DNA from: SAR324 cluster bacterium
Lineage (GTDB): Bacteria > SAR324 > NAC60-12
Length of the DNA: 64,000 bases
Reading direction: 5' to 3'
Assembly: GCA_014382365.1 (NCBI GenBank)
Contig: JACNJW010000039.1
Span: forward strand, 62,001-126,000
A model generated the notes under the pieces. The model was not told the origin of the DNA. It saw only the letters and a program-made list of their open reading frames with translations, and made no database searches. A program made the position numbers and the translations under genes. Below are positions 33,364 to 59,931 of the stretch, piece by piece (positions within the stretch are counted from its first letter, which is position 1; each line of letters begins with the position of its first letter).

Positions 33364-33439
33364 CGTTTTCCTAAAAAACTTAGTTAATAAAACTTTAGCT
33401 TTTGTTTCAAGAGATATTTTCTGTCGCGAGTAATTAAAG

Positions 33440-36130: not shown

Positions 36131-36155
36131 CTAAATCGTCCTTTATCAAAACTTG

Positions 36156-40561: not shown

Positions 40562-40571
40562 AGGAGCAGTA

Positions 40572-41705: not shown

Positions 41706-41714
41706 AGGAGAATT

Positions 41715-42275: not shown

Positions 42276-42287
42276 AAGGAGATAAAC

Positions 42288-44954
42288 ATGTCTACACCCT
42301 ATTACACACCAACTGATAAAGTACCTTTGCCTCCCCGTAATGCAGAAGTACTGACTACTGCCTGTGATTACTGCATTGTTGCCTGTGGTTATAAAGTCTA
42401 CCGCTGGCCGCTTGGTCAGGAAGGTGGGCACGAAGCCGCTAAGAATGCTTTTGGTAAGGATTTTCCTGTAGCAACTCTTCAGGAATGGATTGCCCCAAAC
42501 CAACACAACATTGTAATGCACAAGGGACGGCAGCACCATGTCGTAATCTTACCGGATAAGCAAACTAAGTTCGTCAATTTGTATGGTGATTCTTCGGTTC
42601 GCGGAGGAACGATTGCACAGAAATGCTACAATCCTGCGACTCCTACCAAAGATCGGCTGAAAACTCCGTTGATACGAATATATGATACGCTGATGCCTGT
42701 TACGTGGGACATGGCATTGGATGTGGCTGCAGAAGTAGGAAAGCATGTGATTGCCAAACATGGTGCGAATGCCTACTCGGTTAAGACTTTTTCGTATCAA
42801 TATATCGAAAACACTTATGCGATTACCAAGTATGCAAGACGGCATATTAATACTGCCGCATTTACCTGGCATGACACTCCATCTGATGTGACTTCAACTC
42901 CGGGCTTCCGTGATGCAGGCTTTGATAATTTTGGTGCAGCTTACAAAGATTGGGCTGATGCGGAAGTATTGATGATCTGCGGAACAGATCCTTACGAAAC
43001 TAAATCAATTCTTTTCACTCAGCATATTAAACCGGCAATTGAAGCAGGTCAAAAAGTGATTATGCTCAATCCACGTGAAACTGCTGGTGTCGCTTTTGCG
43101 AAAAAGATGGGCGGAATTCACATTGATCTCTATCCTGGGACAGATAATCTGGTCGTCAATGCCATGGCACGAATTATTGTCGAAAATGGCTGGGAGGATT
43201 CAGAGTGGATTAAAAAATGGGTCAACAACAAGTGGGAAACGGATTCCGGTTTTGGTCAGGGAACACGCAATACCCCCTGGCAGTGGCGTACTACCTGGGG
43301 TAAGTTCGAGTCTAAAGGTTTTGAAGATTGGAAAAAGTGGGTCATGGCACAACCGGAATATGAGTTGGAATATGCTGCTCGATTATCCGGGGTTGATCCT
43401 GCCAAAATACGAAAAGCAGCAGAATGGCTCTCCAAACCTGTCAACGGTAAGCGTCCGAAAACCTCGATCGGCATTGAAAAAGGATTTTACTGGTCAAATA
43501 ATACTGGCAACACGGAAGCTATCGGTGCTTTGGCGATTATCACAGGAACCGGTGGACGGCCTGGCCAAATGGTAGCACGTTTCGGCGGTCACCAGAGAGG
43601 TGGTACCGGTGGTGGTAAATACCCGCGTAATAAGTCACCGGAAAAAAGACCGGGAAGACGAAGGAGGGCACTGGATACCGATCGTTGGCTTTATTCAGAT
43701 CACACACGTTTTTCACATGTGATTGGTACGACTTGGCTGCAGTCAATGTGTGGTTCACAGGGACTGCAGAAAAAATTTCATGAACTGGTAACTGCAAATC
43801 CGCACCAGATTCGTTCTTTTGATAAAGCAGAAATCATTGAAACGCTGAAGAAACGTGCTGATTCCGGTGGTATGGTGGTTATAAATCAGGATATCTACCT
43901 GGTTGATCCAATTGGAGCAAAATTTGCGGACATTGTTTTTCCTGCTGCAACATGGGGTGAGGAAGATTTTGTCCGTGCTAACGGTGAACGCCGTTTGCGG
44001 CTCTACTCCAAGTTCTATGATGCACCGGGAGAGGCTAAACCGGACTGGTGGATAATCAGTCGGCTTGCACAGCGAATGGGTTTCGACGGTTTTGACTGGG
44101 AAAACTCAAATGATGTTTTTGAGGAATCCTGTCGCTTTTCACGAGGCAACCGCAAGGATTATAATATGATCAAGGTTGATGCACGTGCCAAAGGAATTAC
44201 TGCTCACGAACGCCTGCGACAGTTTGGTACTGATGGTATTCAGGGACCGGTGTTTCGAGTTAACGGAGAACTGGTTGGAACAACCCGTCTGCATGATACG
44301 CAGAAGGAACTTCCGGAAACCGGGCCGATGGGTGCAAATATGTTCAACAAAAAGCTGACTCACTTTAATTCGCAAACGGGGAAGAATAACATTATGAAGT
44401 CTCCGTGGAGCCTTTTTTCAGATTTCTGGGAATGGCTCTCACCAAAAGGTGATGAATTATGGGTGACCAACGGTCGCATCAACGAAATTTGGCAGTCAGG
44501 TTTCGACGATGTTGAAAGGCGTCCCTATATAACTCAACGCTGGCCGGAAAACTATTGCGAAATTCATCCGGACGATGCCAGAAGGCGTGGAATTAAATCC
44601 GGAGATCGGGTCATGGTCTATTCGGAACGAGTAGCGGAGCAAAAGGAAACTATTCTTGGAGTTAAGGGTGATGATTTTCAATTTTCCTCATTAATGGATA
44701 GAGGTCAAATTGAGCTCAGTAAAGGTGCGGTGACAGCAATTGCAATGGTGACACCTGCTATTAAAAAAGGAGTTTTATTTATGAATTTCCTTGATAAACG
44801 TCAACCGTCTAATGCCATTCAAGCAAGAGTGGTAGATCAAATTAGCGGAAACTACAATTATAAGATGGGAGTCGGAAAGATCGTTCGACTTGGAGGCTCA
44901 GCTTACCAGAGAGATCAACATTCCTTCTCGTTTGCACCTCGCAACATCGTATAA
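42288..44954 (+). CDS. idrA: AioA-family molybdopterin catalytic subunit, probable iodate reductase
   Basis: An 888-residue protein with the AioA/IdrA iron-sulfur motif C26-x2-C29-x3-C33 and a Ser (S103, in SSVRGG) near the fourth-ligand position, indicating a [3Fe-4S] cluster. Segments NQDIYLVDPIGAKFADIVFP, NGERRLRLYSKFYDAPGEAK and PAATWGEEDF match AioA-family folds. No signal peptide is present; it would be exported with its Tat-bearing Rieske partner. The two peroxidase genes upstream favour iodate reductase (IO3- to iodide or hypoiodous acid) over arsenite oxidase, which lacks such partners. The order here, P-P-B-A, differs from the described A-B-P1-P2. Confidence 0.75.
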   Translation: MSTPYYTPTDKVPLPPRNAEVLTTACDYCIVACGYKVYRWPLGQEGGHEAAKNAFGKDFPVATLQEWIAPNQHNIVMHKGRQHHVVILPDKQTKFVNLYGDSSVRGGTIAQKCYNPATPTKDRLKTPLIRIYDTLMPVTWDMALDVAAEVGKHVIAKHGANAYSVKTFSYQYIENTYAITKYARRHINTAAFTWHDTPSDVTSTPGFRDAGFDNFGAAYKDWADAEVLMICGTDPYETKSILFTQHIKPAIEAGQKVIMLNPRETAGVAFAKKMGGIHIDLYPGTDNLVVNAMARIIVENGWEDSEWIKKWVNNKWETDSGFGQGTRNTPWQWRTTWGKFESKGFEDWKKWVMAQPEYELEYAARLSGVDPAKIRKAAEWLSKPVNGKRPKTSIGIEKGFYWSNNTGNTEAIGALAIITGTGGRPGQMVARFGGHQRGGTGGGKYPRNKSPEKRPGRRRRALDTDRWLYSDHTRFSHVIGTTWLQSMCGSQGLQKKFHELVTANPHQIRSFDKAEIIETLKKRADSGGMVVINQDIYLVDPIGAKFADIVFPAATWGEEDFVRANGERRLRLYSKFYDAPGEAKPDWWIISRLAQRMGFDGFDWENSNDVFEESCRFSRGNRKDYNMIKVDARAKGITAHERLRQFGTDGIQGPVFRVNGELVGTTRLHDTQKELPETGPMGANMFNKKLTHFNSQTGKNNIMKSPWSLFSDFWEWLSPKGDELWVTNGRINEIWQSGFDDVERRPYITQRWPENYCEIHPDDARRRGIKSGDRVMVYSERVAEQKETILGVKGDDFQFSSLMDRGQIELSKGAVTAIAMVTPAIKKGVLFMNFLDKRQPSNAIQARVVDQISGNYNYKMGVGKIVRLGGSAYQRDQHSFSFAPRNIV

Positions 44955-44994: not shown

Positions 44995-45225
44995 TTAACT
45001 ATATGGTATTTCAATGTTTACAGATAGATTTATTTAATTTGCAATTAATTGTAAGAAAATTGTCTCCTGTACGACAAAAATGTAAATTAGTACTAAATTA
45101 TATAATTGAGTGATTAAGCCGTTAACAGCTTTTTTGGAATAATCCAAATTTAGCTGAGTCAGATTGCTTTATCTACAATTGAAGTGATCAAATCAATTGA
45201 GTCTGAACCTAAACAAAAAATTGCT

Positions 45226-45999
45226 ATGAGAATTTTTATATCCCTGGTATTCGTCTGTTTGCTTTTTGGTGCATCTCAGGCACTTAGTGCTAAAAAGTAT
45301 AAAGTAATTGAAGTCAAAAATGGTGGATCGGTTTCCGGAAGTGTTTTGCTGAAAGGCAAAGTTCCCAACCCGGAACGGATTGCCGTTGCCAAAAATCCGG
45401 AAGCCTGCGGAACCGAAGACCGTATGATTAAGTGGGTTGAAGCCGGTGAAAAAGGCGGGTTACAGAATATGGTGGTTTATCTCTACAAAGTAAAAAAGGG
45501 CAAAGGGTGGAAAAATGACTCTGGAACTTATGAGATTGATCAAAAAGATTGTGATTTCCACCCTTGGCTAAAGATTGTTCCCAAAGGTAGCAAATTGATT
45601 GTCAAAAATTCTGATCCGGTTTTACACAATATTCATATCCGCGAATTGAAAGGAGTCAAGCCTGGAAAACGCTATCGTCCGGTGAAAAAGACTGTGTATA
45701 ACGAAGGACAACCACCTGGAAGCGGTGATATTAACACTGAGATCAAAACGCGAATGAGAGGAAACTTAATTCGTATCAACTGTGAAGCACACAATTTCAT
45801 GTTTGCCTGGATGTTTGCTGCAGACCATCCTTATGTTGTACAAACAAATGCCGATGGTAGTTACTCCATCGACAACATTCCAGCGGGGAAATATAAACTT
45901 CGTGCCTGGCATCCGACTCTTGGTTTAAAAGAACAGAAAATCAAAGTTGCAGCTGGTGCTTCAGTCACTCAGGATTTTACTTTCAAAGGAAAAAAATAA
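45226..45999 (+). CDS. Cupredoxin-like protein with carboxypeptidase-regulatory-like domain
   Basis: A 257-residue secreted protein. The ATG at 45226 opens on the signal peptide (IFISLVFVCLLFGASQALS), favoured over an upstream GTG. The middle is a cupredoxin-like fold with a plausible type-1 copper site: His in VLHNIHI and a C-x2-H-x2-M group in NCEAHNFM. The last 70 residues (DGSYSIDNIPAGKYKLRAWH) are a carboxypeptidase-regulatory-like beta domain. It may be a periplasmic copper electron carrier serving the iodate or bd-like enzymes that flank it. Confidence 0.7.
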   Translation: MRIFISLVFVCLLFGASQALSAKKYKVIEVKNGGSVSGSVLLKGKVPNPERIAVAKNPEACGTEDRMIKWVEAGEKGGLQNMVVYLYKVKKGKGWKNDSGTYEIDQKDCDFHPWLKIVPKGSKLIVKNSDPVLHNIHIRELKGVKPGKRYRPVKKTVYNEGQPPGSGDINTEIKTRMRGNLIRINCEAHNFMFAWMFAADHPYVVQTNADGSYSIDNIPAGKYKLRAWHPTLGLKEQKIKVAAGASVTQDFTFKGKK

Positions 46000-46083: not shown

Positions 46084-46815
46084 ATGTTACGATGGAAAAT
46101 ATTTTTAAGTCTCACTTTAGCATTATTTTTAGGAGTAATGCCTCTACAGGCAAAAAAATATAAAGCTCTTAAAAAAGGTGTAAAAAATGGTGCAACTTTA
46201 ACCGGACAAATTGTATTTGACGGCACGCCGCCAAAACCAAGAATGCTCAAGGTTGATAAAGATACTGAGACCTGTGGAAGCGATCGTCTTTCCGAAGAAT
46301 TGGAAGTCTCTTCCGGAGGTGGTATCAAAAATGTGGTGGTCAGTATTGAGGGAATTTATAAAGGGAAAAAATGGAAAAAGAGTTTCAAAAAATTCACTTA
46401 TGACCAAAAGGGTTGTCGGTTTGTACCGCATATTATTTTGATGCGTGCAAAAGCAAAAGGCGTGGTACTCAATAGTGACAATGTTGGACACAATTTCCAC
46501 ACTGTCAGTAAAGGGGTTTACAATATCAATAAAAAAATTAAAGCCAATGCCAAAATGAAGGTCAAGAAAAAGAAGATCAAGAAATCCGGAATAATTCGGG
46601 TAAAGTGCGATCTGCACTCTTGGATGGGAGGTTGGTGGATTGTGGCCAAAACACCTTACACAGAATTAACAGATGCCTCAGGTAAATTCAGCATTGCTGA
46701 TATTCCTCCTGGAAAATATACTTTGAAAATTTGGCAGGAAAAGCTTGGTGAAACCAAACAAAAGCTAGTGATCAAAGCTGGTGAAACCAAAAACATCAGC
46801 ATCAAAATTAAATGA
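46084..46815 (+). CDS. Second cupredoxin-like protein with carboxypeptidase-regulatory-like domain
   Basis: A 243-residue secreted protein, very Lys-rich, of the same layout as its neighbour: signal peptide, cupredoxin-like domain with VGHNFHTV and C-x2-H-x2-M in KCDLHSWM, then a C-terminal DASGKFSIADIPPGKYTLKI beta domain. AAAAGGAGAACAA precedes the ATG. The two genes probably arose by duplication. It precedes the bd-like oxidase genes. Confidence 0.7.
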   Translation: MLRWKIFLSLTLALFLGVMPLQAKKYKALKKGVKNGATLTGQIVFDGTPPKPRMLKVDKDTETCGSDRLSEELEVSSGGGIKNVVVSIEGIYKGKKWKKSFKKFTYDQKGCRFVPHIILMRAKAKGVVLNSDNVGHNFHTVSKGVYNINKKIKANAKMKVKKKKIKKSGIIRVKCDLHSWMGGWWIVAKTPYTELTDASGKFSIADIPPGKYTLKIWQEKLGETKQKLVIKAGETKNISIKIK

Positions 46816-46931: not shown

Positions 46932-48893
46932 ATGTCGCATTTATTACCGAACAAATTTAGAAAAAACTCAAGATTGTGGATGCCATTGTTCCTTTCCGGA
47001 ATAGTGTTTCTTGGAGGAGTATTTTCTGTTTTTGGTGCGGGTGCGCAGGAAATAGTAGACTACAGAACTTTCTTTGGTTTTGATCCACGGACTACAGTAT
47101 GGATTATTGCAGAACTGCATTTGATGTTTGGGGCTTTTGTTCTGGGTGTGCCGATGTTTGCGGTGACTGTTGAATATGTTGGTGTGTTGACCGGAGAAGA
47201 ACGCTATGACCGTTTGGCCAAGGATTTTACCCGTCTGCTTTCGGCTTCCTTTGCTCTGACTGCAGCTTTGGGAGGTTTATTGACTTTTGCACTGTTCACG
47301 CTTTATCCAAAAGTTATGACCTTCATGTCAGGAATCTTTCATGAAAGTTTTTACATTTATGCTTTCTTTTTCTTTGGAGAAACTTTTGTCCTCTATTTTT
47401 ATTACTATTCCTGGGATCGCTTAAAAAACCGAAAGGGTATTCATATTTCTGCTGGTATCTTGTTGAATCTTATCGGTCTGATCATCATGGGAATTTCAAA
47501 TTCCTGGGCAACTTACATGATGAGTCCGTCAGGGATTGATCCGGAGACCATGAAATTCACCGGAACTCTAATGGATGCCATCTGGAATCCGCTTTGGAAT
47601 CCACTCAATTTACACCGTATTTTAGGAAACGCCGTTTTTGGCGGCTATGTCGCCGGTGCTTATGCAGCGGTTAAATTTTTAACTGCACAAACAGAAGAAG
47701 ACCGTGCCCATTACGATTGGATGGGTTATGTCGGCAATTTTATTGCCATTGTCTCGCTCCTCTTTTTGCCGTTCGCCGGTTATTATTTGGGGCGCGAAGT
47801 TTATAGTTTCAGCCCGGTTATGGGGAACAACATGATGGGCGGTGCGTTCAGTTGGACCTTTATCATCCAAGCCATCGGTATCGGTAGTTTGCTGATTTTA
47901 GGCAATTTTTATTTGTGGATGGGAATGGGACGCATTCCGGGAGCCGAGCGTTATCAGGGGTTTATCAAATTCATCCTTTTTATTTTGACACTTTCTTTTG
48001 CGATTTGGCTCACGCCGCACAACTTGCCTTTGAGTTCCGGCGAACAATTACGAATGGGCGGCCAATATCATCCGACACTAAAATTTTTCGGCTTAATGCC
48101 GGCCAAAAACGCGGTTATCAATTTTATGATTCTTGGCACATTCTTCAGTTTTTTGCTCTATCGTCGGGGCAACATTTCCAAAACAATTCCCTTTTCGCAA
48201 CAAGGCGGCGGAGCAAAGTTCTGGACTTTGATTTTCACCGGACTCGCTTTTGCGTCAATTTTGTGGTATGGCGAATATCTTTGGAATCTTGATCCAAAAG
48301 AGCTCGACCTTCCTCCCGAAAAAGTTGAATTTTTTTCATTAGCCGCCTGGTGTTTAATTGGACAAGCCTTTTTTATTGCAGTGGCAGTTGCTTTCACTTT
48401 CAAGGACCAAGGAAAAATTGGACAAGCAATTTTATTTACTTACACAGTGATTAACACAGTCTTTATTTTAGGAATTTACGGATTTGTGGTGATGGCTGAG
48501 GCCAGTCCTTTCTTGAGAAACATTGCAGTAGCCCAGTGGTTGTCAATGTTGAGTTGCATCATTGCAGTACTCACAATTGATATTTTTATCTTCCGCAAAG
48601 CAGAACACATGGGGGCGATTCGCTGGGGTAAAATGTCTGCAGTTTCACAATATGTTTTATTGACGTTGTTTATTGTGTCTTTGTTGACAATGGGTATCAT
48701 GGGCTTTATCCGTTCAGGTTTGCGTGAAAACTGGCACGTTTACGGAGTTTTGGAGGATACATCTGACTGGGCCTTTACGCCGACCAATCTATATGCCGCA
48801 AAGGTTATTGCTTTTTGTGCACTCACGTTCATTTTAATGATGACAGTTGCCTTCTGGCTGAGTGAATTAGGAGAGAAGAAAAAAGTAAAATAG
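46932..48893 (+). CDS. bd-like oxidase subunit I homologue, module A
   Basis: A 653-residue membrane protein whose first half resembles CydA of cytochrome bd: H63 in AELHLMFGAFVLG aligns with the conserved heme ligand His of helix I, and LHRILGN holds a second conserved His. The quinol-loop GRQPW motif of CydA is absent and the C-terminal half differs, with about 14 helices in total. Enzymes of this kind are known from Nitrospira as bd-like oxidases. The three following genes encode cytochromes c, so electrons probably enter from these rather than directly from quinol. Oxygen reduction is likely but unproven. Confidence 0.75.
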   Translation: MSHLLPNKFRKNSRLWMPLFLSGIVFLGGVFSVFGAGAQEIVDYRTFFGFDPRTTVWIIAELHLMFGAFVLGVPMFAVTVEYVGVLTGEERYDRLAKDFTRLLSASFALTAALGGLLTFALFTLYPKVMTFMSGIFHESFYIYAFFFFGETFVLYFYYYSWDRLKNRKGIHISAGILLNLIGLIIMGISNSWATYMMSPSGIDPETMKFTGTLMDAIWNPLWNPLNLHRILGNAVFGGYVAGAYAAVKFLTAQTEEDRAHYDWMGYVGNFIAIVSLLFLPFAGYYLGREVYSFSPVMGNNMMGGAFSWTFIIQAIGIGSLLILGNFYLWMGMGRIPGAERYQGFIKFILFILTLSFAIWLTPHNLPLSSGEQLRMGGQYHPTLKFFGLMPAKNAVINFMILGTFFSFLLYRRGNISKTIPFSQQGGGAKFWTLIFTGLAFASILWYGEYLWNLDPKELDLPPEKVEFFSLAAWCLIGQAFFIAVAVAFTFKDQGKIGQAILFTYTVINTVFILGIYGFVVMAEASPFLRNIAVAQWLSMLSCIIAVLTIDIFIFRKAEHMGAIRWGKMSAVSQYVLLTLFIVSLLTMGIMGFIRSGLRENWHVYGVLEDTSDWAFTPTNLYAAKVIAFCALTFILMMTVAFWLSELGEKKKVK

Positions 48894-48908
48894 ACTGTAA
48901 TTAATAAA

Positions 48909-50081
48909 ATGAAGCGAATTCTACCGATAGTAATTTTTGTATTTTCTGTTTTGGGGGCCTTTGTCTATGTGGGTTATGTGGTGACAGATATCGCCGGTGG
49001 TGGAGTGGCTACCGCTGGTGCTGAAGGCGTGAGTCCTGAAGCCGGTGAAACAATTTTCTGGGGCAAAGGAAAATGCTACACTTGTCACAGTATTGGCGAC
49101 GAGGGTAGTGCCATCCGCTGTCCAAATTTGGGTGAAAACAACATTGCCGCCTTATTGTCATTACCTGTTGGTGTTCGGGCTGAAGAACGCGCTGTGTTGC
49201 GGAGTGAGCAGACAGGAAAACACTTTTCTGCAACCGATTATTTAGTTGAAAGCCTGGCAGATCCTGGAGCCTATGTTGTTGACGGTTTTAAAAACGAAAT
49301 GCCTTATGTTTATAAGCCTCCAATCGGTTTGACACCTGATGAAGTGAAAGCCGTTATTTTGTATTTGCAAAGTCAAGGTGGAGAAGTTGATGTGGCACAA
49401 ATCAAACTTCCGGATGTAATACTTGCGGCACAAAAAGAAGAAGCTGAACCATGGCAACCGTATTTTGCAGGTGATCCTGAAAACGGCATGGAGCTTTTCT
49501 TTGACGAAGAAAGCAACGCCGGTTGTTCCCGTTGCCATACGGTAGCAGAAAATGGAGGAAAAGTAGGTCCTGAGTTGACAACTGTTTCCGGAACACGTTC
49601 CCCACAATATATTGTCGAATCCATAATACAACCCAGCGAAGTTATTGCCAGTGGTTTTGAATCCCTGTTAATTGTCAGTAAAGACGGACGATATTTGACT
49701 GGAATCAAAAAGGGTGAGGACGAACAGTCAATTTCCTTGATGCTTGATACTGGAGAAATTCAAAAAGTTTCCAAAGATGAAATAGAAGAAGTGGCTCCAC
49801 AAGAAACGTCTGTGATGCCTTCCGGATTTGCCGATGATCTCACCATGACCGAATTCCATGATGTATTGGCCTTTGTTTTGACTCTCGATGGTGAACAACC
49901 AATAGGTGGCAGCGGGGATGAAGATGAGGAAGATGATGATGAAGAGGAAAGTGCTGACGAAGACTCCGAAGATGTGGAAGATGATTCAGGTGATGATGAG
50001 GAAAGTGATGATGAGGAAAGTGATGATGAGGAAAGTGATGATGAGGATGAGAACGGCAGGGATAAAGGAGAGGAAGGATGA
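48909..50081 (+). CDS. Diheme cytochrome c with acidic tail, module A
   Basis: A 390-residue protein with an N-terminal anchor helix and two heme sites: CYTCHSIG (about residue 56) and CSRCHTVA (about 202). The second half, including GPELTTVSG and RSPQYIVESIIQPSEVIASG, matches the heme-binding domain first described in planctomycetes (TIGR02603 type). The last 55 residues are almost all Asp, Glu and Ser, encoded by a 15-base DNA repeat (GATGATGAGGAAAGT) at about 49992-50045. It starts 16 bases after the bd-like gene and overlaps the next by four bases. Confidence 0.8.
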   Translation: MKRILPIVIFVFSVLGAFVYVGYVVTDIAGGGVATAGAEGVSPEAGETIFWGKGKCYTCHSIGDEGSAIRCPNLGENNIAALLSLPVGVRAEERAVLRSEQTGKHFSATDYLVESLADPGAYVVDGFKNEMPYVYKPPIGLTPDEVKAVILYLQSQGGEVDVAQIKLPDVILAAQKEEAEPWQPYFAGDPENGMELFFDEESNAGCSRCHTVAENGGKVGPELTTVSGTRSPQYIVESIIQPSEVIASGFESLLIVSKDGRYLTGIKKGEDEQSISLMLDTGEIQKVSKDEIEEVAPQETSVMPSGFADDLTMTEFHDVLAFVLTLDGEQPIGGSGDEDEEDDDEEESADEDSEDVEDDSGDDEESDDEESDDEESDDEDENGRDKGEEG

Positions 50082-50953
50082 ACTTTTTTTGGAAAATAGT
50101 GCTGTTTTTTGTTGCTATCCGTTATGGGTTTTTTGAAGTTGTTTTTCCCAGAGTTTCACAATGGGCAGTCAACTCTCCGGATTTATTACCAGCACCAGCG
50201 GCGGCTATGAGCATGTATACCTGGCTGATGATGGTAGCCATTGCAATTTATATTCTTTCAAGTGAAGAAAGAATTGCTGATTTTATGACGCCAATTCATC
50301 AGTTTCTTAAACCCCAAACAGCAGCAGCTAAAAAAGGTATGCAGATTGTGGTGCTGGCAGCAATACCATTATTTGGTGGATGGAGTTATTTTGATGTTAA
50401 CTCTCCCAAAATGGTCAGCCCAACTGCAGTTCGTATTCAGCATCCAACCATGCCCGGCTCATTTGAAGGCATGAAGAATCCGCTACGCGATCCCACCGAG
50501 GAGCAGGTTGAGGAATTCATTGCAGAGCAAAAAGAGTTGGCAGAAGAGGCTGCAGAAGATGAAGAAATGGAGCCGGTAACCGTACCCAATAATATTGAGG
50601 ATGGTCGCATTGCCTTAGTCTCCAAATGGACGGAAGAAGGTGCAGCACTTTATGCAGTAAATTGCCGACCTTGTCATGGAATGCAGGCGGATGGTGTGGG
50701 ACCAATGGCTGTAGGCTGGCGTTTACAACCTGCCAATTTCCGGGATCCTGGGACTATTGCGACTATTGTTGAAGAATATGCTTTTTGGCGTGTGAGCAAA
50801 GGTGGTCCGGGATTACCTTCTGCATCCACTCCATGGGACTCTGCAATGCCGATTTGGGATTTGGACTTATCAGAAAATGAACGTTGGAAAATACTACTGG
50901 GAGAATATTTTCTTGCTGGTGTAGGTCCGCGACAAACAGAAAAACTGGAATGA
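50078..50953 (+). CDS. Membrane-bound monoheme cytochrome c, module A
   Basis: A 291-residue protein with two or three N-terminal helices (WLMMVAIAIYILSS, GMQIVVLAAIPLFGGWSYF) and one heme domain with CRPCHGMQADGVGP and the family pattern PANFRDPGTIA. A Glu-rich segment (QVEEFIAEQKELAEEAAEDE) links them. GGAGAGGAAGG precedes the ATG, which lies inside the previous stop. Probable electron entry subunit for the bd-like protein. Confidence 0.8.
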   Translation: MNFFWKIVLFFVAIRYGFFEVVFPRVSQWAVNSPDLLPAPAAAMSMYTWLMMVAIAIYILSSEERIADFMTPIHQFLKPQTAAAKKGMQIVVLAAIPLFGGWSYFDVNSPKMVSPTAVRIQHPTMPGSFEGMKNPLRDPTEEQVEEFIAEQKELAEEAAEDEEMEPVTVPNNIEDGRIALVSKWTEEGAALYAVNCRPCHGMQADGVGPMAVGWRLQPANFRDPGTIATIVEEYAFWRVSKGGPGLPSASTPWDSAMPIWDLDLSENERWKILLGEYFLAGVGPRQTEKLE

Positions 50954-50978
50954 TGCAAAGCAGAAAGATAACAAAAAT

Positions 50979-52592
50979 ATGATTCCATTACATTCCTTAG
51001 AAAAAAACGGATTACAAAAATATCAGCTTTGGCTGTCATTATTTCTGTTGCTGCTTTTTACATGTGTTGGACTTTTAAATGCACAAACTGCAGAAAAACT
51101 TCCGGCAACCGCTGAAAATTTAGTGGCGGGAAAACAGATTTACCGCAACAGTTGTTGGTATTGTCATGGAAAAATCGGAGACGGAAATGGTCCTGCGGCA
51201 GATTTTCTGGATCCGCGTCCACGAGATTTTACGGCGGGAATGTACAAAATCCGCACGACCAAAACCGGAGAATTGCCCACCGATGAAGACCTTTTCCGGA
51301 TCATCAGCAAAGGCATTCCGGGAACAGCTATGCCGCGCTGGGAATTGACGCTTGACGATAATGAACGATGGCAGGTTTTGCAGTACATTAAGGCTTTTGC
51401 CTACGAATTTTCCGATCCGGAATATGACCCCTACAAAGCGGTGGTGGAAATTCCGCCAAAGGTTGAATCGTCTCCGGAAAGTATTGCCCAGGGCCGGAAA
51501 ATATTTGAAAAAAATAAATGCTTTGAATGTCATGGTTTGGAAGGAAAAGGTGACGGACGCGACGGTTTAGAAGACGGTTGGGGCTTTCCGGTGCGTGTCC
51601 GGAACTTAACAAGAGGCACAAATATTAAAGGCGGTAAGAATCCGGAAGATATTGTTTATCGTTTCACCACCGGAATCAACGGCACGCCAATGCCCTCTTT
51701 TGCAAAAAATATCGGCGGCGAAGATCGCTGGCATTTGGCGAATTATATTGCTTCCATTGCCAGTACAGAGTATAGCGAAGGTGTGATCCTCAAAGCTGTT
51801 AAAATCGAACAAACTGCTCCGTCAACAATCGATGCGGAAATTTGGGAGACGCTTCCGGCATTGCGGATTCCATTGGCCGGACAGGTAATTGCCAAACCAC
51901 GTTGGCAAAATCATGCTATTGATTTAGTACAAGTTCGTGCTGTATTCAATGATGAAGAAATTAGTTTCCTCGTGGAATGGGACGATCCGTTTCAAGACAC
52001 AAAACATGATGCAGAACAAGAAATTCACGAATATGAAAATACTTATGTCATGGCAGTTGATGAAGTACCACGCGAGCGGAATGTGTTCCGGGACTCGATT
52101 GCAATGCAATTTCCGGTGAAGCTCAAATCAGGAGCAAAAAAACCGCACTTTTTCCGCGGCGATACCAGTAATCCGGTCAACTTATGGGTTTGGAAATCAG
52201 ATCTTGAAGCCTCTGGAAACAATCCGGTAGAAGATACCAACGCCAACGGTTTCAATAAACCTCTCAAATCACAACCGGAGACAGGACAACAGGTGACAGG
52301 AAAAGGCGTTTGGAAAAATGGGCGCTGGCGGGTGGTCATGAAACGAACGCTGACTACTGAAGACCGTAACGATATTCAGTTTGAAAAAGGAAAAATGATT
52401 CCGATGGCTTTCAACGCCTGGGACGGCTCAAACGGCGAACACGGCCTGATCATGTCACTGTCTGCCTGGAGTTTTGTTTATTTGGATGTTCCAATTCCAA
52501 CCAATTTGTACGGCTATGCTTTTCTGATAATGCTAATAATCGCAGGATTGTTATTATTATTTATTCGCTATAGCCGCTCTAAGTCTTCTTAA
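50979..52592 (+). CDS. Diheme cytochrome c with ethylbenzene-dehydrogenase-like heme domain, module A
   Basis: A 537-residue secreted protein with two heme c domains (CWYCHGKIGDGNG and CFECHGLEGKGDG), then a domain of about 230 residues resembling the heme b-binding gamma subunit of ethylbenzene dehydrogenase (LRIPLAGQVIAKPRW, FLVEWDDPFQDT), and a C-terminal helix (AFLIMLIIAGLLLLFI) anchoring it. It closely parallels the protein at 56039. Likely a periplasmic electron carrier linking other reductases or oxidases to the bd-like membrane core. Confidence 0.8.
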   Translation: MIPLHSLEKNGLQKYQLWLSLFLLLLFTCVGLLNAQTAEKLPATAENLVAGKQIYRNSCWYCHGKIGDGNGPAADFLDPRPRDFTAGMYKIRTTKTGELPTDEDLFRIISKGIPGTAMPRWELTLDDNERWQVLQYIKAFAYEFSDPEYDPYKAVVEIPPKVESSPESIAQGRKIFEKNKCFECHGLEGKGDGRDGLEDGWGFPVRVRNLTRGTNIKGGKNPEDIVYRFTTGINGTPMPSFAKNIGGEDRWHLANYIASIASTEYSEGVILKAVKIEQTAPSTIDAEIWETLPALRIPLAGQVIAKPRWQNHAIDLVQVRAVFNDEEISFLVEWDDPFQDTKHDAEQEIHEYENTYVMAVDEVPRERNVFRDSIAMQFPVKLKSGAKKPHFFRGDTSNPVNLWVWKSDLEASGNNPVEDTNANGFNKPLKSQPETGQQVTGKGVWKNGRWRVVMKRTLTTEDRNDIQFEKGKMIPMAFNAWDGSNGEHGLIMSLSAWSFVYLDVPIPTNLYGYAFLIMLIIAGLLLLFIRYSRSKSS

Positions 52593-52612
52593 TCATAGTT
52601 CAATAAAATACT

Positions 52613-54379
52613 GTGCAAGCAAAAATAAATAGAATAGATAATTCAAAATATGTTGTACGCAGTATTTTTCTGCTGTTGTTTTTGGGTCTTGCCGGAGCAG
52701 TCTGGGGGCAGGAACTGATTGAGTTGCCTGAATATCGGGCATTTCCGATTATTGGCAGTCGGGTGGCGGTTTGGATTGCCGCAGAGGTGCATTTGATGTT
52801 TGCTGCGTTTGTGCTGGGTGTGCCGATGTTTGCAGTGATTGTCGAACTGATTGGTGTTCTCACAAAGCAAGAACGCTATGACAAGATGTCTAAGGAGTTC
52901 ACTAAACTATTGGCAATTGCTATGTCCACCACTGCCATTTGGGGGGGGATTTTGCTTTTCCTGCTTTTGACGCTATACCCGCGTTTCATGAATTACCTCT
53001 CTGAGGTTTTCCTGCCGACTCTCTGGATTTATCCTTTTCTTTTCTTTCTCGAAGCCTTCACGCTCTATATTTATTATTATGGTTGGGAGCGGATGAAAAG
53101 CGGAAAGAGTAAATGGTTTCATCTTTATCTCGGACTTCAACTCAACATTGTCGGCACTGTTTTATTGTTGGTAGCCAATGCCTGGGCCACTTTTATGATG
53201 ACTCCCGGAGGTGTTGACATGAAAACCGGAGCCTTGATGAATATTTGGGAAGTCATCGACAATTTCGCGTGGTGGCCGATCAACATTCACCGTTTGATTG
53301 CCAATGTGACATTTGGCGGTGCAATCGTAGCGGCTTATGCGGCATTTAAGTTTTTGCATTCCAGCACAGATGAAGATAAGGCGCATTATGATTGGATGGG
53401 GTATGTCGGCAACATGATTGCCATTTGGTCGTTTTTGGTTTTGCCGTTTGCAGGATACTGGTTGATGCGCGAGTTATATCAATATGATCAGACAATGGGT
53501 ATCACAATGATGGGCGGATTTCTCTCCTGGCTTTGGATTATTCAGGCGGTACTGATTTCATCACTTTTTCTAGCCAGCAATTATTATTTGTGGCTGGGCA
53601 TGGAGCGGATTGACGGCGGGGAGCGTTACCAGAAATATATCAAATATATGCTCAGTGTTTTGCTCTTGTGTGTTTGGGTTTGGGCAACTCCGCACAGCCT
53701 TGTGGTTTCACCGGAAGAAGTCGCGGTCATGGGCGGCGTACATCATCCGGTAATCGGAATTTTCGGCGTGATGTCCGCAAAAATGACGGCGGTCAACTTT
53801 ATGATTTTAACTTCGGCAATCGGCTTTATGTTTTACCGCCGCGCCAACAAAGTGGCAACTGTCAGTTATGCGATGCCGCTTAATTTGCTGCAAGCCGGAA
53901 TTTTTGCAGGAGTCGGGGCTTATGTTTTGTACTTGGGTGTGGACGGATATTTTGTCGAACCAAGCATTCGCGTCAATAAATATTCGGTTTGGCAGGTTTT
54001 AGCGGTTTTATTCGCCATCATTTCAACAACAGTGATTGATGTTTTCCTTTTTAAAAATTCTGAATCTCTTGGCAAATTCCATTGGGGGAAAATGCCGCAA
54101 CGCTCCCAATATATTTTGATTTTTATTGCAGTTACCTTCACTTGGCTGATGGGATTGATGGGCTATGCCCGTTCCGCAATTCGTCAGCATTGGCACGTCT
54201 ATAAAGTGATGGAAGATACTTCAGTTGATGCTTTTGCGCCAACTCTAGGTTTTGCCTCAAATGTGGTTTCAGTTTGCGTCTTAATCTTCTTGGGGTTGGT
54301 CATGTTTATTTTCTGGCTTGGTTCACTGGCTGACCCGAAAAAGAAAGAAACTCCGGTTGTGGCGGAGATGAACCGATGA
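52613..54379 (+). CDS. bd-like oxidase subunit I homologue, module B
   Basis: A 588-residue paralogue of the module A protein, sharing AEVHLMFAAFVLGVPMFAV (His60), NIHRLIANVTFGG and YDWMGYVGNMIAIWS, and again lacking GRQPW. The start is a GTG; no ATG lies near. It is about 65 residues shorter than its paralogue. It overlaps the next gene by four bases (ATGA). Confidence 0.75.
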   Translation: MQAKINRIDNSKYVVRSIFLLLFLGLAGAVWGQELIELPEYRAFPIIGSRVAVWIAAEVHLMFAAFVLGVPMFAVIVELIGVLTKQERYDKMSKEFTKLLAIAMSTTAIWGGILLFLLLTLYPRFMNYLSEVFLPTLWIYPFLFFLEAFTLYIYYYGWERMKSGKSKWFHLYLGLQLNIVGTVLLLVANAWATFMMTPGGVDMKTGALMNIWEVIDNFAWWPINIHRLIANVTFGGAIVAAYAAFKFLHSSTDEDKAHYDWMGYVGNMIAIWSFLVLPFAGYWLMRELYQYDQTMGITMMGGFLSWLWIIQAVLISSLFLASNYYLWLGMERIDGGERYQKYIKYMLSVLLLCVWVWATPHSLVVSPEEVAVMGGVHHPVIGIFGVMSAKMTAVNFMILTSAIGFMFYRRANKVATVSYAMPLNLLQAGIFAGVGAYVLYLGVDGYFVEPSIRVNKYSVWQVLAVLFAIISTTVIDVFLFKNSESLGKFHWGKMPQRSQYILIFIAVTFTWLMGLMGYARSAIRQHWHVYKVMEDTSVDAFAPTLGFASNVVSVCVLIFLGLVMFIFWLGSLADPKKKETPVVAEMNR

Positions 54380-55167
54380 ACACAATTAAAGTCATTCTTT
54401 TCACTGTTTTAGTTGTTGGTTTTTATTCTTTTTACGCCAATAGCATTCCGCAAACCGAATCACATCCGCCAAAAAAAATCAGCCTTGACGCAAAACTCAG
54501 CGAAGACGAAATGATCGAAGCCGGAGAGCGTGTTTATTCGACAAAAGGCACTTGCGGAATTTGCCATGCAATTGGGCGCAAAGGTTCGCGAGGACCGGAT
54601 TTGAACGGTGTCGGTTTACGGGCCGCAAACCGCAGAGAAGGCATGAACGCAAAAATTTATTTACTGGAATCGCTGTTGGATCCGTCTGTTTATTTGGTGG
54701 AAGGCTACGCACCGATGATGCCACCGATGGCCGGTATTTTGACTCCCGGAGAAGTGATGGTGACAGTCGCTTATCTTCAAAGTTTGGGCGGGCAGGTTAA
54801 TATTACTCCGGAGGATGTCCGGGCCGCAATGCAGGTTGGTGCAAGTTCAACTTCTCCGGTTACGGAAGTAGCTCCGGCAGTTGAAGAAACAGCTGTAAAC
54901 ACTATTATTAATGAAGTGAAATCCGGTGATGCAGAAAAAGGGAAAACGGTCTATAACACTTTTTGTATTGCATGTCATAATCCTGACCCGGCTTTGGCTG
55001 GTCCAATTGGGCCGGAAATCAAAGGTTCTTCACGGGAATTGCTGGAAGCACGTGTCATGCGGGGGCAATATCCGGATGATTACACACCCAAAAGGGAAAC
55101 GAAAATTATGCCACCCATGACAAATCTGGTTAACGACATTGACCATTTGACTGAATTTTTGAAATAA
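54376..55167 (+). CDS. Diheme cytochrome c, module B
   Basis: A 263-residue protein with an N-terminal anchor helix and two heme sites, CGICHAIGRKGSRGPDL and CIACHNPDPAL, separated by a Pro/Glu/Ala-rich linker. It is the counterpart of 48909 in module A but has no acidic tail and a simpler second domain. Confidence 0.8.
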   Translation: MNTIKVILFTVLVVGFYSFYANSIPQTESHPPKKISLDAKLSEDEMIEAGERVYSTKGTCGICHAIGRKGSRGPDLNGVGLRAANRREGMNAKIYLLESLLDPSVYLVEGYAPMMPPMAGILTPGEVMVTVAYLQSLGGQVNITPEDVRAAMQVGASSTSPVTEVAPAVEETAVNTIINEVKSGDAEKGKTVYNTFCIACHNPDPALAGPIGPEIKGSSRELLEARVMRGQYPDDYTPKRETKIMPPMTNLVNDIDHLTEFLK

Positions 55168-55179
55168 ACTGTTCAAACA

Positions 55180-55941
55180 ATGTTTAAAAAAATTCTTACA
55201 CATATTTTATTTATCAATGCTTTGATTGTGCTGGCTGTTGTCTTATTTCTGCAATATGCAGTTGTGCCGGCCATTCCGCAAAGTGTTTTTTCATTCTATG
55301 TGATTGCGTTGATTTTGGGTTTAATCTTGTTTGTGACTTCAACCAGCAAGAATTTAGAGGAATTCTGGCAGCCCATCGAAGTACTTTTGACCAATGATAA
55401 ATTGATTGTTTTACGGTGGCTGGTGCTGTTGACAATTCCGGCTGTGCTTGCTTTTTACATCGGATTATCTATGTTACCTTCTAATCAGGCACCTTTGGAA
55501 TTAAGGGTAGTCCATCCTGCACCGCCTGGAGAAATCATTTTTAACGGAAAAACAATCAGTATGCGGGATGTCGTTAATCCCTTCAGAGCATATGAAACTT
55601 CTGATCCGGAAAAATTTACGGAACACGTAGAGTTGGGACGCAAAGTTTATTATGAAAATTGCCATTTTTGTCACGGCGATTTTCTGGACGGCAAAGGTAC
55701 TTTTGCTAATGCGCTCGACCCGAAACCGGCCAATTTTCAAGATGTCGGAACGATTGCTCAGTTGCAGGAAACCTATGTTTTTTGGCGCATTGCCAAAGGC
55801 GGACCGGGACTGCCGGCAGAGTCGATGCCGTGGCAGTCAGCAATGCCGGCCTGGGAGGGTATCTTGTCTGAAGAAGATATTTGGGACGTAACCTTGTTTT
55901 TATACAAAGCAACCAATCACCCTCCGCGAACTTGGGAATGA
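55180..55941 (+). CDS. Membrane-bound monoheme cytochrome c, module B
   Basis: A 253-residue protein with three N-terminal helices and one heme domain, CHFCHGDFLDGKG, followed by PANFQDVGTIAQLQETYVFW, which mirrors PANFRDPGTIATIVEEYAFW in the module A protein at 50078. Probable electron entry subunit. Confidence 0.8.
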   Translation: MFKKILTHILFINALIVLAVVLFLQYAVVPAIPQSVFSFYVIALILGLILFVTSTSKNLEEFWQPIEVLLTNDKLIVLRWLVLLTIPAVLAFYIGLSMLPSNQAPLELRVVHPAPPGEIIFNGKTISMRDVVNPFRAYETSDPEKFTEHVELGRKVYYENCHFCHGDFLDGKGTFANALDPKPANFQDVGTIAQLQETYVFWRIAKGGPGLPAESMPWQSAMPAWEGILSEEDIWDVTLFLYKATNHPPRTWE

Positions 55942-56038
55942 TTTAGTATTTGTGCCCATGGATCATTCGAATAAAAACGGAAAAAATCCGAACAACCATC
56001 GAAAATTTGTGACTGATTATAGATTTATTGGTTTTTTT

Positions 56039-57640
56039 ATGAATCGTATATTTTACGGAATATTGGCTTTAATCATTTTTAGTGTACCGCTAGTTGCTTC
56101 GGCGGCTGGGCACTCGCACGACCATTCCGGAGGCAAAGCAGTTTATGACGAACATTGTGCACATTGCCATGGATACGAAGGTGACGGACAAGGTTATGCT
56201 TTTGAAAATGCTTTTCCGAAACCGAGAGATTTTACTTTCGGAATGTTCAAAATCCGTACAACTGCTACCGGAGAAGAACCTACGCAAGACGACCTTTTCA
56301 ACATCATCAGCAGAGGAATGCCCGGAACCACCATGCCGGAATGGGCAACTGTGCTGAACGAACAACAACGCCGCGATGTCGCCGTTTATGTAGAGCAGTT
56401 TTACAAGGGTGAAGATGAGGAGGAAGAAGACGAAGAAGTAGATGAGGATGAAACTGAAAAGGAAGAAGCAGACGAAGAAGAGACTGACGAGGAAGAAGCA
56501 GACGAAGAAGAGGAAGAGGTGGATGATGAAGATGAAGAAGATGCTCCGGTTGCACCTCTCGTAATTCCAAAAGCACCGGTTTCTACTCCGGAAAGCATTG
56601 CACTCGGCAAGGAATTGACCATAAAAGTAGAATGCGATAAATGTCACGGAAAAGAGGGACGAGCGGATGGTCCATCTGCAATGGAATTGAAGGACGATTG
56701 GAATCAATTAGCGATGCGCCCTGCAGACTGGACTGCTCCCTGGCGTTTCAGAGGTGGAAATCTTCCGGAAGATATTTTCCGTACAGTACGAACAGGGCTT
56801 AACGGTACGGCCATGCCCTCCTTTGCGGAAGATCTAACAGATGAAGAGACATGGAATGTAGTGCATTATGTGCGCTCACTGGCTCCAGAAGTTGAACCGA
56901 ATGTAAAACGAACACTTGTTTCTAAAGAAGTGGAAGGTGAACTTTCATTAGAAATGGATGTTCAATGGCAAGCTGCTCAGGAATTTTATGTGCCGTTTTC
57001 CGGACAAGTGATTGTCAACGAACGACTGTTTCAACCCATGGTACATTCTCTCCGTTTTCGTTCTATTTACAATGAAGAAGAAATAGCCTTCCGGATTCAG
57101 TGGAACGATCCGACTTCAAAAGATCACAAAGATTTTGCCGGCGGTGATGAAATGATTTTACAATTTCCGGCAAAGCTTAAAAAAGGTGAACGTATCAAGC
57201 CATATTTTTTGATGGGACAGCCCGGCAAGTCGGTCAACATCTGGCTTTGGAGCGATGCTACAGGAAAAGCAGTTGACGCAAAATCCTCGCGTTTGGGTGA
57301 TTGGCTGGTACGAGAAGATCACAACTTGGATTCTAAAATTGAACACAAAAACGGTCAATATACTTTGTCGATTAAACGTGCCCGTGTCAACGAACAAAAA
57401 GGAAGCATCCAGTTTCCACCTGATCAGGTGTTCGTGCCAATTGCATTTTCTGTAGTCGAAGGCTCCAGCGGTGAAGGCGGCAGCAAACGTGGTGTAACAA
57501 CCTGGTATAATTTACTGCTGGAACAGCCCGTTGGAAATAATATCTATTATGTGCCGATTTTGATATTTCTGTTAATTCTTGGTTTGGAAATACTGTTGAT
57601 GATACGCACCAGGAAAAATTTTAAGGCAGCAAAAAGTTAA
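56039..57640 (+). CDS. Diheme cytochrome c with acidic linker and ethylbenzene-dehydrogenase-like domain, module B
   Basis: A 533-residue protein. ATG at 56039 opens on the signal peptide (IFYGILALIIFSVPLVASA); an upstream in-frame ATG at 55952 would add 29 polar residues. First heme CAHCHGYEGDGQG, then a 45-residue linker of almost only Glu and Asp (about 126-170), second heme CDKCHGKEGRADG, a heme b-type ethylbenzene-dehydrogenase-like domain (FYVPFSGQVIVNERLF, FRIQWNDPTS) and a C-terminal helix. Same architecture as 50979 apart from the acidic linker. Confidence 0.8.
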   Translation: MNRIFYGILALIIFSVPLVASAAGHSHDHSGGKAVYDEHCAHCHGYEGDGQGYAFENAFPKPRDFTFGMFKIRTTATGEEPTQDDLFNIISRGMPGTTMPEWATVLNEQQRRDVAVYVEQFYKGEDEEEEDEEVDEDETEKEEADEEETDEEEADEEEEEVDDEDEEDAPVAPLVIPKAPVSTPESIALGKELTIKVECDKCHGKEGRADGPSAMELKDDWNQLAMRPADWTAPWRFRGGNLPEDIFRTVRTGLNGTAMPSFAEDLTDEETWNVVHYVRSLAPEVEPNVKRTLVSKEVEGELSLEMDVQWQAAQEFYVPFSGQVIVNERLFQPMVHSLRFRSIYNEEEIAFRIQWNDPTSKDHKDFAGGDEMILQFPAKLKKGERIKPYFLMGQPGKSVNIWLWSDATGKAVDAKSSRLGDWLVREDHNLDSKIEHKNGQYTLSIKRARVNEQKGSIQFPPDQVFVPIAFSVVEGSSGEGGSKRGVTTWYNLLLEQPVGNNIYYVPILIFLLILGLEILLMIRTRKNFKAAKS

Positions 57641-57685
57641 CTCTTAAATCTTGCAGTTGCAGGTTTGATTGAGTCAGGAGGAGCG

Positions 57686-59008
57686 ATGGCCAATAACCAA
57701 CAAATCAATAATCAATACCAGCCCTATCTGGTAGCGTTAAATTTGACTCAGCGCTGCAATCTAAAATGTGCACATTGTTATCTTGATGCAGGTGGAAAAA
57801 CAGACTCTGCCAAAGATGAGTTAAGTACCTCAGAATTGAAGGCTCTCTTTTCAGAAATATCTGAGCGTGCAGAAGGCACTTTGATTGTACTGACTGGTGG
57901 AGAACCTTTGTTACGACCGGATATCGTCGAATTAACTGCAGCTGGGAATGCACTAGGTTTACGCATGGTTTTGGGTACGAACGGTATGCTGCTCACTTCG
58001 AAAGTTGCACAGGAATTAAAAGGTGCAGGTTTACAAGGCGTTGGCATCAGTCTGGACAATTTGCATCCTGAAGGGCATGACCGGTTTAGAGGTGTTTCGG
58101 GTGCCTGGGAAAAAACACTAACGGCAATTCGTGCTTGCCGTGCCTGTGGACTACATGTCCAGCTTCATACAACGGTAACTCACCAAAATGCGAACCAGAT
58201 TGAAGCCTTTGTTGAGTTTGCAAAAAAAGAAGGTGCAAGTATTCTTAATTTCTTTTTTCTGGTTTGTACAGGACGAGGGCAGTGGATGAACGATATTTCT
58301 CCGGAACAATATGAAGATGTTCTTGAACGCATTGCAGAACTGCAGAGAGAGACTAAATCATTGATGATTCAGGCTCGTTGTGCACCTCATTTTAAACGCA
58401 TTTTGTATCAACACGATTCACAGTCAGCATTTACACGGGCTCAGGGCTACGACGGCGGAGGCTGTCCGGCGGCAACGCATTATTGTCGGATTGATCCGCA
58501 GGGTAATGTCACACCTTGTCCTTACATGGAAAATGTTGCAGGTAATATCAGACAGTCCGGTTTCTGGAATATTTGGAATGAGTCATCTTTATTTCAGAGG
58601 TTTCGCTCGCCTTCGTTGAATGGACGTTGCGGAAGTTGTGAATTCCGCAATTTATGTGGTGGTTGCCGGGCAAGAGCACAGGAGCGTTTTGAGGATATAA
58701 TGGCCGAAGATCCGACCTGTACCTGGCAACCGAAAACGAATCTTCCAGTAGCAATAGATTTACCTTCCGGAAAACTGGATGGCTCTGTTGAGTGGTCTGC
58801 GGAAGCAGAAAAACGATTAAAACGAATTCCGATTTTTTTACGAGGCATGATCCGCAAACGTTTGGAAGAAAAAGTTCGCTTAATGAATACAGATTTTAGT
58901 GAAAAAATTGTGATTACTCCGGAATTCATGGCGGAGCACCGGAAACAGCGTGAGCAGGAATTAGGAATTAAATTTGAAGATGCAAACCCTACAAGGAGAA
59001 CAATATGA
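57686..59008 (+). CDS. Radical SAM/SPASM heme-biosynthesis-type enzyme with PCP_red-like tail
   Basis: A 440-residue cytoplasmic enzyme. CNLKCAHC (C23, C27, C30 region) binds the radical SAM [4Fe-4S] cluster; GGEPLLRPD is the SAM motif; the SPASM region ends in CGSCEFRNLCGGCRARAQ and AEDPTC, very like AhbC/AhbD and NirJ, enzymes that trim heme precursors. After residue about 360 comes a helical domain (WSAEAEKRLKRIPIFLRGMI) resembling PCP_red (BchB C-terminal type). It could make heme d1 for NirS, but its place after the bd-like modules suggests a role there. CAGGAGGAGCG precedes the ATG at 57686. Confidence 0.75.
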   Translation: MANNQQINNQYQPYLVALNLTQRCNLKCAHCYLDAGGKTDSAKDELSTSELKALFSEISERAEGTLIVLTGGEPLLRPDIVELTAAGNALGLRMVLGTNGMLLTSKVAQELKGAGLQGVGISLDNLHPEGHDRFRGVSGAWEKTLTAIRACRACGLHVQLHTTVTHQNANQIEAFVEFAKKEGASILNFFFLVCTGRGQWMNDISPEQYEDVLERIAELQRETKSLMIQARCAPHFKRILYQHDSQSAFTRAQGYDGGGCPAATHYCRIDPQGNVTPCPYMENVAGNIRQSGFWNIWNESSLFQRFRSPSLNGRCGSCEFRNLCGGCRARAQERFEDIMAEDPTCTWQPKTNLPVAIDLPSGKLDGSVEWSAEAEKRLKRIPIFLRGMIRKRLEEKVRLMNTDFSEKIVITPEFMAEHRKQREQELGIKFEDANPTRRTI

Positions 59009-59931
59009 GCGCAGTATTAAAATTTGAAAAGCAATATCCACAAATTTCTGTGGAAGCTGAAGCAATGGCAGTTGATTTGCCAGATGGACCGACCAGGATG
59101 CCGGTTACCACACTTCCGGAACACTTCATTGATTGGATGGAGGAGGGACGCCGCGGAATGTATAATCGTTTGAAGGGAAAGCAAGATAATGTTGAATTCT
59201 TTTCTCAGCATCTTCCGGTTTTGGTGACGCACAATCCGAATTCAGTTTTTCCTTTTAATTGCGGAAACAAAGGCGTAGGGTTTTTGCCGAAAGCAGAATA
59301 TTTGGAAGAATACACGGAGCGTTACCGCGAAACGATGGAACGTACACGCGGCATTCCTTGGCAAGATTCTTTGGAACAGCGTTTGGAAACAGTTTCCGAG
59401 TTTAATTTTAATCGTGAAGTGATTGATTACCGTTGTCTAACTTCATTGGAAATTTTTGAAAAACGAACTTTCAACAATCTCCGCCAGTTACCTTTGGCAT
59501 CTTTGCATTATACAGGTCACTGTCCTTCTTATACCAGTTTTCAGTTAAATTGCGGTGTTGAAATTGTGGGGCAGGATGATCCAAGACACACCTTTATCAT
59601 GCTTTCCCGTACAATGTTTGAATACGACAGTTTTCATATTGCACAACCTCAGTTTCCGTATGGCTACCTTTTTTGGATTTCTGAGGTGCAGGACAAAACG
59701 CCGCATCGTGTTGAGGAACAACCGGACAAAGTGCAGTACCTTCAACAAAATGGAGAAATGCAATGGCAACCTGAAGCAATCGCTTCTATTAACCGTGCTC
59801 CAGGAATGATTCGTCAACACATTTGTGAGACTGTCGAAAAATATGCACGTGAACGCGGTTTTAGCGAAATTACAGTAGAAGTTTTGCAGGAAGCAAAGAG
59901 CAACATGAACGAATGTCCGGTGCATAAGTAG
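59005..59931 (+). CDS. Unknown protein with C-terminal PCP_red-like domain
   Basis: A 308-residue soluble protein. The first 240 residues match no family I recognise; they include HYTGHCPSYTSFQLNC and two further Cys. The last 55 residues, MQWQPEAIASINRAPGMI and the helix after it, match the PCP_red-like repeat also found in both neighbours, and the protein ends in ECPVHK. It starts inside the stop of the radical SAM gene (ATGA), so the two are translationally coupled and probably cooperate. Confidence 0.65.
   Translation: MSAVLKFEKQYPQISVEAEAMAVDLPDGPTRMPVTTLPEHFIDWMEEGRRGMYNRLKGKQDNVEFFSQHLPVLVTHNPNSVFPFNCGNKGVGFLPKAEYLEEYTERYRETMERTRGIPWQDSLEQRLETVSEFNFNREVIDYRCLTSLEIFEKRTFNNLRQLPLASLHYTGHCPSYTSFQLNCGVEIVGQDDPRHTFIMLSRTMFEYDSFHIAQPQFPYGYLFWISEVQDKTPHRVEEQPDKVQYLQQNGEMQWQPEAIASINRAPGMIRQHICETVEKYARERGFSEITVEVLQEAKSNMNECPVHK

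Follow-up and report, generated by a model that had tools for sequence, protein, structure and literature searches.

This analysis concerns a locus at positions 46932–57640 of a 64,000-nucleotide stretch of SAR324 cluster bacterium DNA (assembly GCA_014382365.1, contig JACNJW010000039.1, positions 62,001 to 126,000 of the forward strand), referred to here as the window. The host is represented by a metagenome-assembled genome (MAG) of 3.25 Mb that is 92% complete. SAR324 of the GTDB corresponds to 'Candidatus Lambdaproteobacteria', a group placed by NCBI as a class within Pseudomonadota. The locus carries two four-gene modules, A and B, each of which combines a core resembling CydA of cytochrome bd with three cytochromes c. 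The reading we prefer, with a probability of roughly 0.55, is that A and B are two self-contained bd-like enzymes of the OR-N/OR-C kind that reduce O2 with electrons from cytochromes c, module A having an Idr/Aio-like molybdenum (Mo) enzyme as its likely partner and module B possibly being served by a heme-tailoring set.

Architecture and cores of the two modules

The locus consists of eight nearly contiguous open reading frames (ORFs) on the + strand, which overlap by 4 bases or are separated by gaps of at most about 25 bases:

46932–48893, +: module A, CydA-like core A, 653 aa (PF01654, 1.7e-22; CydA fold, Z 34.7)
48909–50081, +: module A, c2A, diheme cytochrome c with an acidic tail (domains, CXXCH count)
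50078–50953, +: module A, mA, membrane monoheme cytochrome c (domains, CXXCH count)
50979–52592, +: module A, ebA, diheme cytochrome c with an EB_dh heme-b domain (PF09459, 2e-25)
52613–54379, +: module B, CydA-like core B, 588 aa (PF01654, 4.3e-26; CydA fold, Z 34.7)
54376–55167, +: module B, c2B, diheme cytochrome c (domains, CXXCH count)
55180–55941, +: module B, mB, membrane monoheme cytochrome c (domains, CXXCH count)
55952–57640, +: module B, ebB, diheme cytochrome c with an EB_dh domain (PF09459, 5.2e-12)

Both modules share the order CydA-like core, diheme cytochrome c (c2), membrane monoheme cytochrome c (m), and diheme cytochrome c with EB_dh (eb). Each contains the Pfam domain Cyt_bd_oxida_I (PF01654), cytochrome c domains (two in c2, one after an N-terminal membrane part in m, and two in eb), and EB_dh (PF09459). 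The CXXCH motifs number 0, 2, 1, and 2 in core, c2, m, and eb, in A and B alike. A preliminary description of this DNA, made from the sequence alone, had proposed two halves of four genes in this order, and the ORF positions, Pfam domains, and CXXCH counts bear this out. Within 46932–57640, no further membrane ORF that could encode a CydB partner was found, and a promoter and terminator scan of the locus gave sites no more frequent than in shuffled sequence.

AlphaFold models of cores A and B were of good quality (mean pLDDT 85.6 and 85.7, respectively; pTM 0.85). The best structural matches of both are CydA chains, aligned over nearly the full length (Z 34.7, 352 residues, rmsd 3.4–3.5 Å), followed by ActC/F-like chains of alternative complex III (ACIII) at Z 19–23. 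Core A has two extra helices (residues 426–451 and 462–490) without counterpart in core B. In an alignment to E. coli CydA, R9, H19, E107, and H186 are kept in all A and B cores aligned, and the position of E99 is occupied by Tyr. The CydA-type heme histidines that the preliminary description mentioned are in place, as the equivalents of H19 and H186. Its second claim on the cores, the absence of the quinol-binding GRQPW motif, holds in part: K252 and E257 of the quinol site are gone in A and B cores and the motif as such is lost, but its Arg and Trp survive in a shortened R-x-x-W-H. In addition, H170, H378, M387, M513, M516, and H528 (core B numbering) are invariant or nearly so in both core types; M513 and M516 are candidate ligands for active-site hemes in core B. 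Taken together, sequence and structure models support the picture of bd-like cores that lack the quinol site and would be fed by cytochromes c.

Origin and distribution of the modules

The modules are adjacent, lie on the same strand, and have the same gene order, and the preliminary description saw them as a tandem duplication. Similarity between A and B far exceeds chance in all four gene pairs. By blastp, the cores share 51% identity over 396 aa and 41% over 142 aa (E ~1e-133), the diheme cytochromes c 32% (E ~1e-19), the membrane cytochromes c 31% (E ~1e-35), and the diheme EB_dh proteins 30–32% (E ~1e-77 to 1e-84). A quick tree of 74 cores, from which long branches had been removed, placed the A-type cores in a single clade (SH-aLRT support 100) with members from the phylum of the window, Methylomirabilota, Myxococcota, Nitrospinota, and Nitrospirota, and from one alphaproteobacterial MAG. 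Core B was placed apart from A, near sequences of Chloroflexota, Gemmatimonadota, and Rokubacteria. A tree constrained to unite the A and B copies from the window's lineage was worse by 217 log-likelihood units and was rejected by the approximately unbiased (AU) test (p = 1.6e-12). Judged from these sequences, modules A and B are ancient paralogues from separate deep, multi-phylum clades that have been brought together. The tree and the AU test rule out a local tandem duplication, and a fresh duplication of one module whose copies are now diverging is highly improbable, also because A and B differ in their multi-phylum distribution and in their neighbors.

The occurrence of the modules was surveyed in 80 named loci, a set retrieved with patterns from both core types; because similarity to core B determined the ranking, the set is biased toward B. 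Typically, such a locus has a single core with c2, m, and eb behind it. Whole-genome searches of 38 genomes from this set revealed a single core of this type in 22. Among 95 Methylomirabilota genomes, 10 had a strong A core (A-profile match above 650 bits), 39 had only a full-length B-type match, and nine had only partial matches. Of the 10 A-bearing genomes, eight also had B and two, both MAGs, had A alone; the association of A with B was not enriched (Fisher p = 0.19). In the window's phylum (52 genomes), both modules were found in four genomes and either alone in none. Absences in these surveys are limited by the incompleteness of MAGs. B modules, then, usually stand alone, and A modules can. 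The preliminary description had set its proposal against a picture in which single-module genomes suffice and the two copies never meet; single modules are indeed common, but A and B do co-occur.

The same data bear on the suggestion that the two cores form a heterodimer in the manner of CydA and CydB. CydB is a heme-less partner, and a CydA/CydB division of labor can be dismissed because the two cores have the invariant His/Met/Glu set in common and CydA is the best match of each. A heterodimer of two CydA-like cores (CydAA′), as proposed in the literature for OR-N1 and OR-N2 of Nitrospirales and Nitrospinota, would be in line with the close spacing of modules A and B (20 bases) and with their joint presence in all four carriers of the window's phylum and in most A-bearing Methylomirabilota. 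Cores of a CydAA′ pair are expected always to occur together, but B without A is common and A without B is seen in the two MAGs mentioned, with the reservation that MAGs can be incomplete. The lack of enrichment in Methylomirabilota likewise argues against pairing, and in G035, a genome from the same order as the window, other genes seem to separate A from B. Furthermore, in the Nitrospirales pairs inspected, the cores lie ~5.5 kb apart and a c2-m-eb-like set follows the second core only, so that two full sets in tandem, with cytochromes for each core, constitute a different arrangement. The heterodimer first suggested is thus weakly supported at best: co-occurrence speaks for it, and the 22 single-core genomes, the 39 B-only Methylomirabilota, and the shared residue set speak against it. 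We regard an A–B heterodimer as possible but unlikely, and do not favor it.

Two side observations concern core number. The Nitrospirota genomes G126, G133, G117, and G104 (loci L195–L202) have two pairs of bd-like cores each. G035 has a third, more divergent bd-like core (L147, 12985–15126) on the contig of module B, with c2, eb, USP, and radical-SAM neighbors of its own.

Genomic neighbors of modules A and B

The preliminary description had suggested that the diverged copies serve different conditions, and this is reflected in different recurrent neighbors: an iodate-reductase-like cluster beside A and a radical-SAM/PCP_red set beside B. The genes upstream of module A are the following:

39452–40561, +: MauG/CCP-type diheme peroxidase, idrP-like (PF03150, 5.7e-35; the same pair lies by Rieske and Mo genes in relatives)
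40572–41705, +: second MauG/CCP-type diheme peroxidase, idrP-like (PF03150, 3.4e-41)
41715–42275, +: Rieske subunit, idrB/aioB-like, with a twin-arginine N-terminus (TIGR02694, 127.7 bits; cut-off 95.7)
42288–44954, +: molybdopterin subunit, idrA/aioA-like (TIGR02693, 434 bits; cut-off 359; peroxidase-Rieske-Mo order as in idr clusters)
45184–45999, +: cpd1, secreted cupredoxin/CarboxypepD_reg-like protein (domain search; relatives also lie beside single modules)
46084–46815, +: cpd2, second cpd-like protein (domain search; neighborhoods of relatives)

The peroxidase-peroxidase-Rieske-Mo synteny of IdrABP1P2 is present at 39452–44954. Synteny of this kind has been used in PMC8692401 to tell iodate reductase from arsenite oxidase. 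By gene order and family models, the cluster is likely of the iodate-reductase type, with an IdrA/AioA-like Mo subunit that passes TIGR02693, an arsenite oxidase model that does not distinguish IdrA from AioA. The likeness to the iodate reductase described in parts of PMC8692401 and PMC10989891 extends to two peroxidases, a Rieske subunit, and a Mo subunit in the order idrP2, P1, B, A; those parts make no mention of a bd-like module, whereas the window's cluster adjoins module A.

All or part of the idr-like set adjoins A-type cores in G003, G035, G039, G074, G090, G238, and G243, a neighborhood seen in the window's lineage, in Methylomirabilota, and in G090. Arrangements vary: in G238 the Mo gene is followed directly by core A, and in G035 and G039 the peroxidases come after ebA. 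The Mo gene of G035 is at the end of another contig, upstream of core B, so that, if the contigs join as inferred, the cluster seems to lie between the modules.

Downstream of module B are three genes of a different kind:

57665–59008, +: NirJ/AhbD-like radical-SAM-SPASM protein with a C-terminal PCP_red domain (family models; relatives adjoin the module in 54 of 80 loci)
59005–59931, +: PCP_red-domain protein (PF08369, 4.2e-11)
60011–62428, +: USP-domain protein with PCP_red repeats (PF00582 and five PF08369 stretches; relatives adjoin the module in 49 of 80 loci)

The radical-SAM homologues in those 54 loci were found within 10-kb flanks, in many phyla, on one side of the module or the other and in both orientations. 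Of 16 homologues scanned, 14 have the PCP_red domain and all match the NirJ2 and AhbD models. The window's protein scores below the NCBIfam equivalog cut-offs (NirJ2, 331 bits against 500; NirJ, 187 against 515; AhbD, 321 against 500). NirJ and AhbD, which are heme-modifying radical-SAM proteins, are its best-scoring families and share its radical-SAM and SPASM architecture; it is unlike them in these scores, in the extra PCP_red domain, and in its link to bd-like modules where the genome has no NirS or NirF. Among genomes of the window's phylum, three of the four module carriers have a close homologue, the only other one being in G025 (p = 0.0007); there the homologue sits beside an ebB gene that is truncated by the contig end, so that the module was probably cut off.

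A general role as a mere heme d1 gene for NirS was rejected, since at least 15 genomes with the radical-SAM gene beside the module have neither NirS nor NirF. In the window's organism the protein may also serve NirS (23588–25201), because it is the only match of its kind (E < 1e-30) in the genome. A literature search for a link between radical-SAM/PCP_red proteins and bd-like modules found none in the papers covered. Gene association and family resemblance suggest that the recurrence of B with this set reflects a dedicated heme-tailoring step. A more specific and tentative proposal, which we consider on balance doubtful, is that across many phyla cytochrome-c-fed bd-like oxidases have their own heme tailoring, in which the radical-SAM-PCP_red protein and its PCP_red/USP partners would make or insert a modified heme, neither d nor d1, for the CydA-like cores.

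Farther upstream, on the same strand, are genes for the cytochrome cd1 nitrite reductase NirS, a COX1-family protein (27266–28855), an SCO1-like protein (32713–33363), and a weakly COX1-like protein (34264–35658); 23588–35658 appears as a wider respiratory island. The region 9562–22818 encodes multiheme cytochromes, two FeS/NrfD pairs, and a molybdopterin oxidoreductase (14734–17277), which resemble ACIII- or reductase-type complexes. An 833-aa protein with TPR-like repeats and a CHAT domain (36153–38654) lies between the respiratory clusters.

Proposed function and relation to known systems

Gene content, fold, conserved residues, phylogeny, and neighborhoods were observed directly; from these we infer O2 reduction, the direction of electron flow, the donor, the subunit contacts, and the heme identity as follows. 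Each module would make up an entire electron-transfer complex of the membrane. A high-potential donor in the periplasm would deliver electrons to the EB_dh heme b and to the c hemes of the eb and c2 proteins, from which they would pass through the membrane-anchored monoheme cytochrome c to the quinol-site-free, CydA-fold core, which would reduce O2 on its active-site hemes. Module A would most likely exchange electrons with the neighboring Idr/Aio-like Mo enzyme and its peroxidases. If that enzyme runs as a reductase, the role of oxidase A might rather be to clear O2 set free in the process; a model for Pseudomonas SCT, cited in PMC8692401, ends with a terminal oxygen reductase. Module B would be the widespread general form, and the NirJ/AhbD-like radical-SAM/PCP_red set next to it may tailor its heme. 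Heme-copper-oxidase-type genes are also present in the host genome, so that modules A and B are not its only possible oxidases.

Several observations weigh against this reading. The joint presence of A and B in all carriers of the window's phylum fits one joint complex. No clear equivalents of E. coli CydA M393 and E445 were found in the cores by profile alignment, which is dependable for the first ~240 residues only, and their heme sites may therefore differ from those of CydA. The link between A and the Idr-like cluster is recurrent but not obligatory, with A found in three of nine Methylomirabilota genomes that have the Mo gene (p = 0.05). The literature search yielded no purified enzyme of this kind in the papers covered, and O2 reduction is a predicted activity. 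Another possibility is that the complexes are not terminal oxidases but ACIII-like or reverse-electron-transfer machines that join periplasmic cytochromes to the quinone pool. Such a role was raised for the bd-like proteins of Nitrospina, given another quinol site (PMC3578206), and would suit the ActC/F-like structural matches, the change at E99, and the probable change at E445. We consider it improbable, as CydA chains match far better (Z 34), K252, E257, and GRQPW of the known quinol site are missing, and H19, E107, and H186 of the heme sites are retained.

Two self-contained bd-like O2 reductases thus remain our preferred interpretation, and it bears on wider questions. Major nitrite oxidizers and manganese oxidizers are presumed to use quinol-independent bd-like oxidases as terminal oxidases, and the locus speaks to questions about the subunits, donor, and hemes of these enzymes. 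The core-c2-m-eb module emerges as a gene unit complete in itself that occurs in many phyla and can be present in two old versions at once. One of these versions is found repeatedly next to a Mo enzyme of the iodate/arsenite type, and the module is accompanied by a porphyrin-type radical-SAM gene. Operons with a single B module are simple targets for expression, for which a concrete heme hypothesis is now available. The conserved radical-SAM/PCP_red companion is the most interesting lead.

Compared with canonical quinol-oxidizing cytochrome bd (qOR), the modules share the CydA fold and H19 and lack K252, E257, GRQPW, and a CydB gene. As in the OR-N/OR-C groups of the cytochrome bd superfamily, a quinol-site-free CydA-like core is encoded with cytochromes c; in the literature on these groups (PMC10839748, PMC12342949, and PMC13189123), the enzymes are regarded as probable cytochrome c oxidases, and the likeness includes the presumed cytochrome c donor and the absence of a CydB gene. 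In OR-N/OR-C pairs two cores share one set, whereas the window has two complete core-c2-m-eb sets in tandem. The bd-like oxidases of Nitrospina and Nitrospira (PMC3578206) and TO_1 of Manganitrophaceae (PMC9040806) resemble the modules in their bd-like core, in extra helices that replace the Q-loop, and in nearby cytochromes c; TO_1 was also described with a periplasmic cytochrome b. Unlike these systems, the window has two full modules and, instead of nitrite oxidoreductase, an Idr/Aio-like Mo enzyme nearby. By gene content and sequence, the system appears to group with cytochrome-c-linked bd-like oxidases already known, and its arrangement is new.

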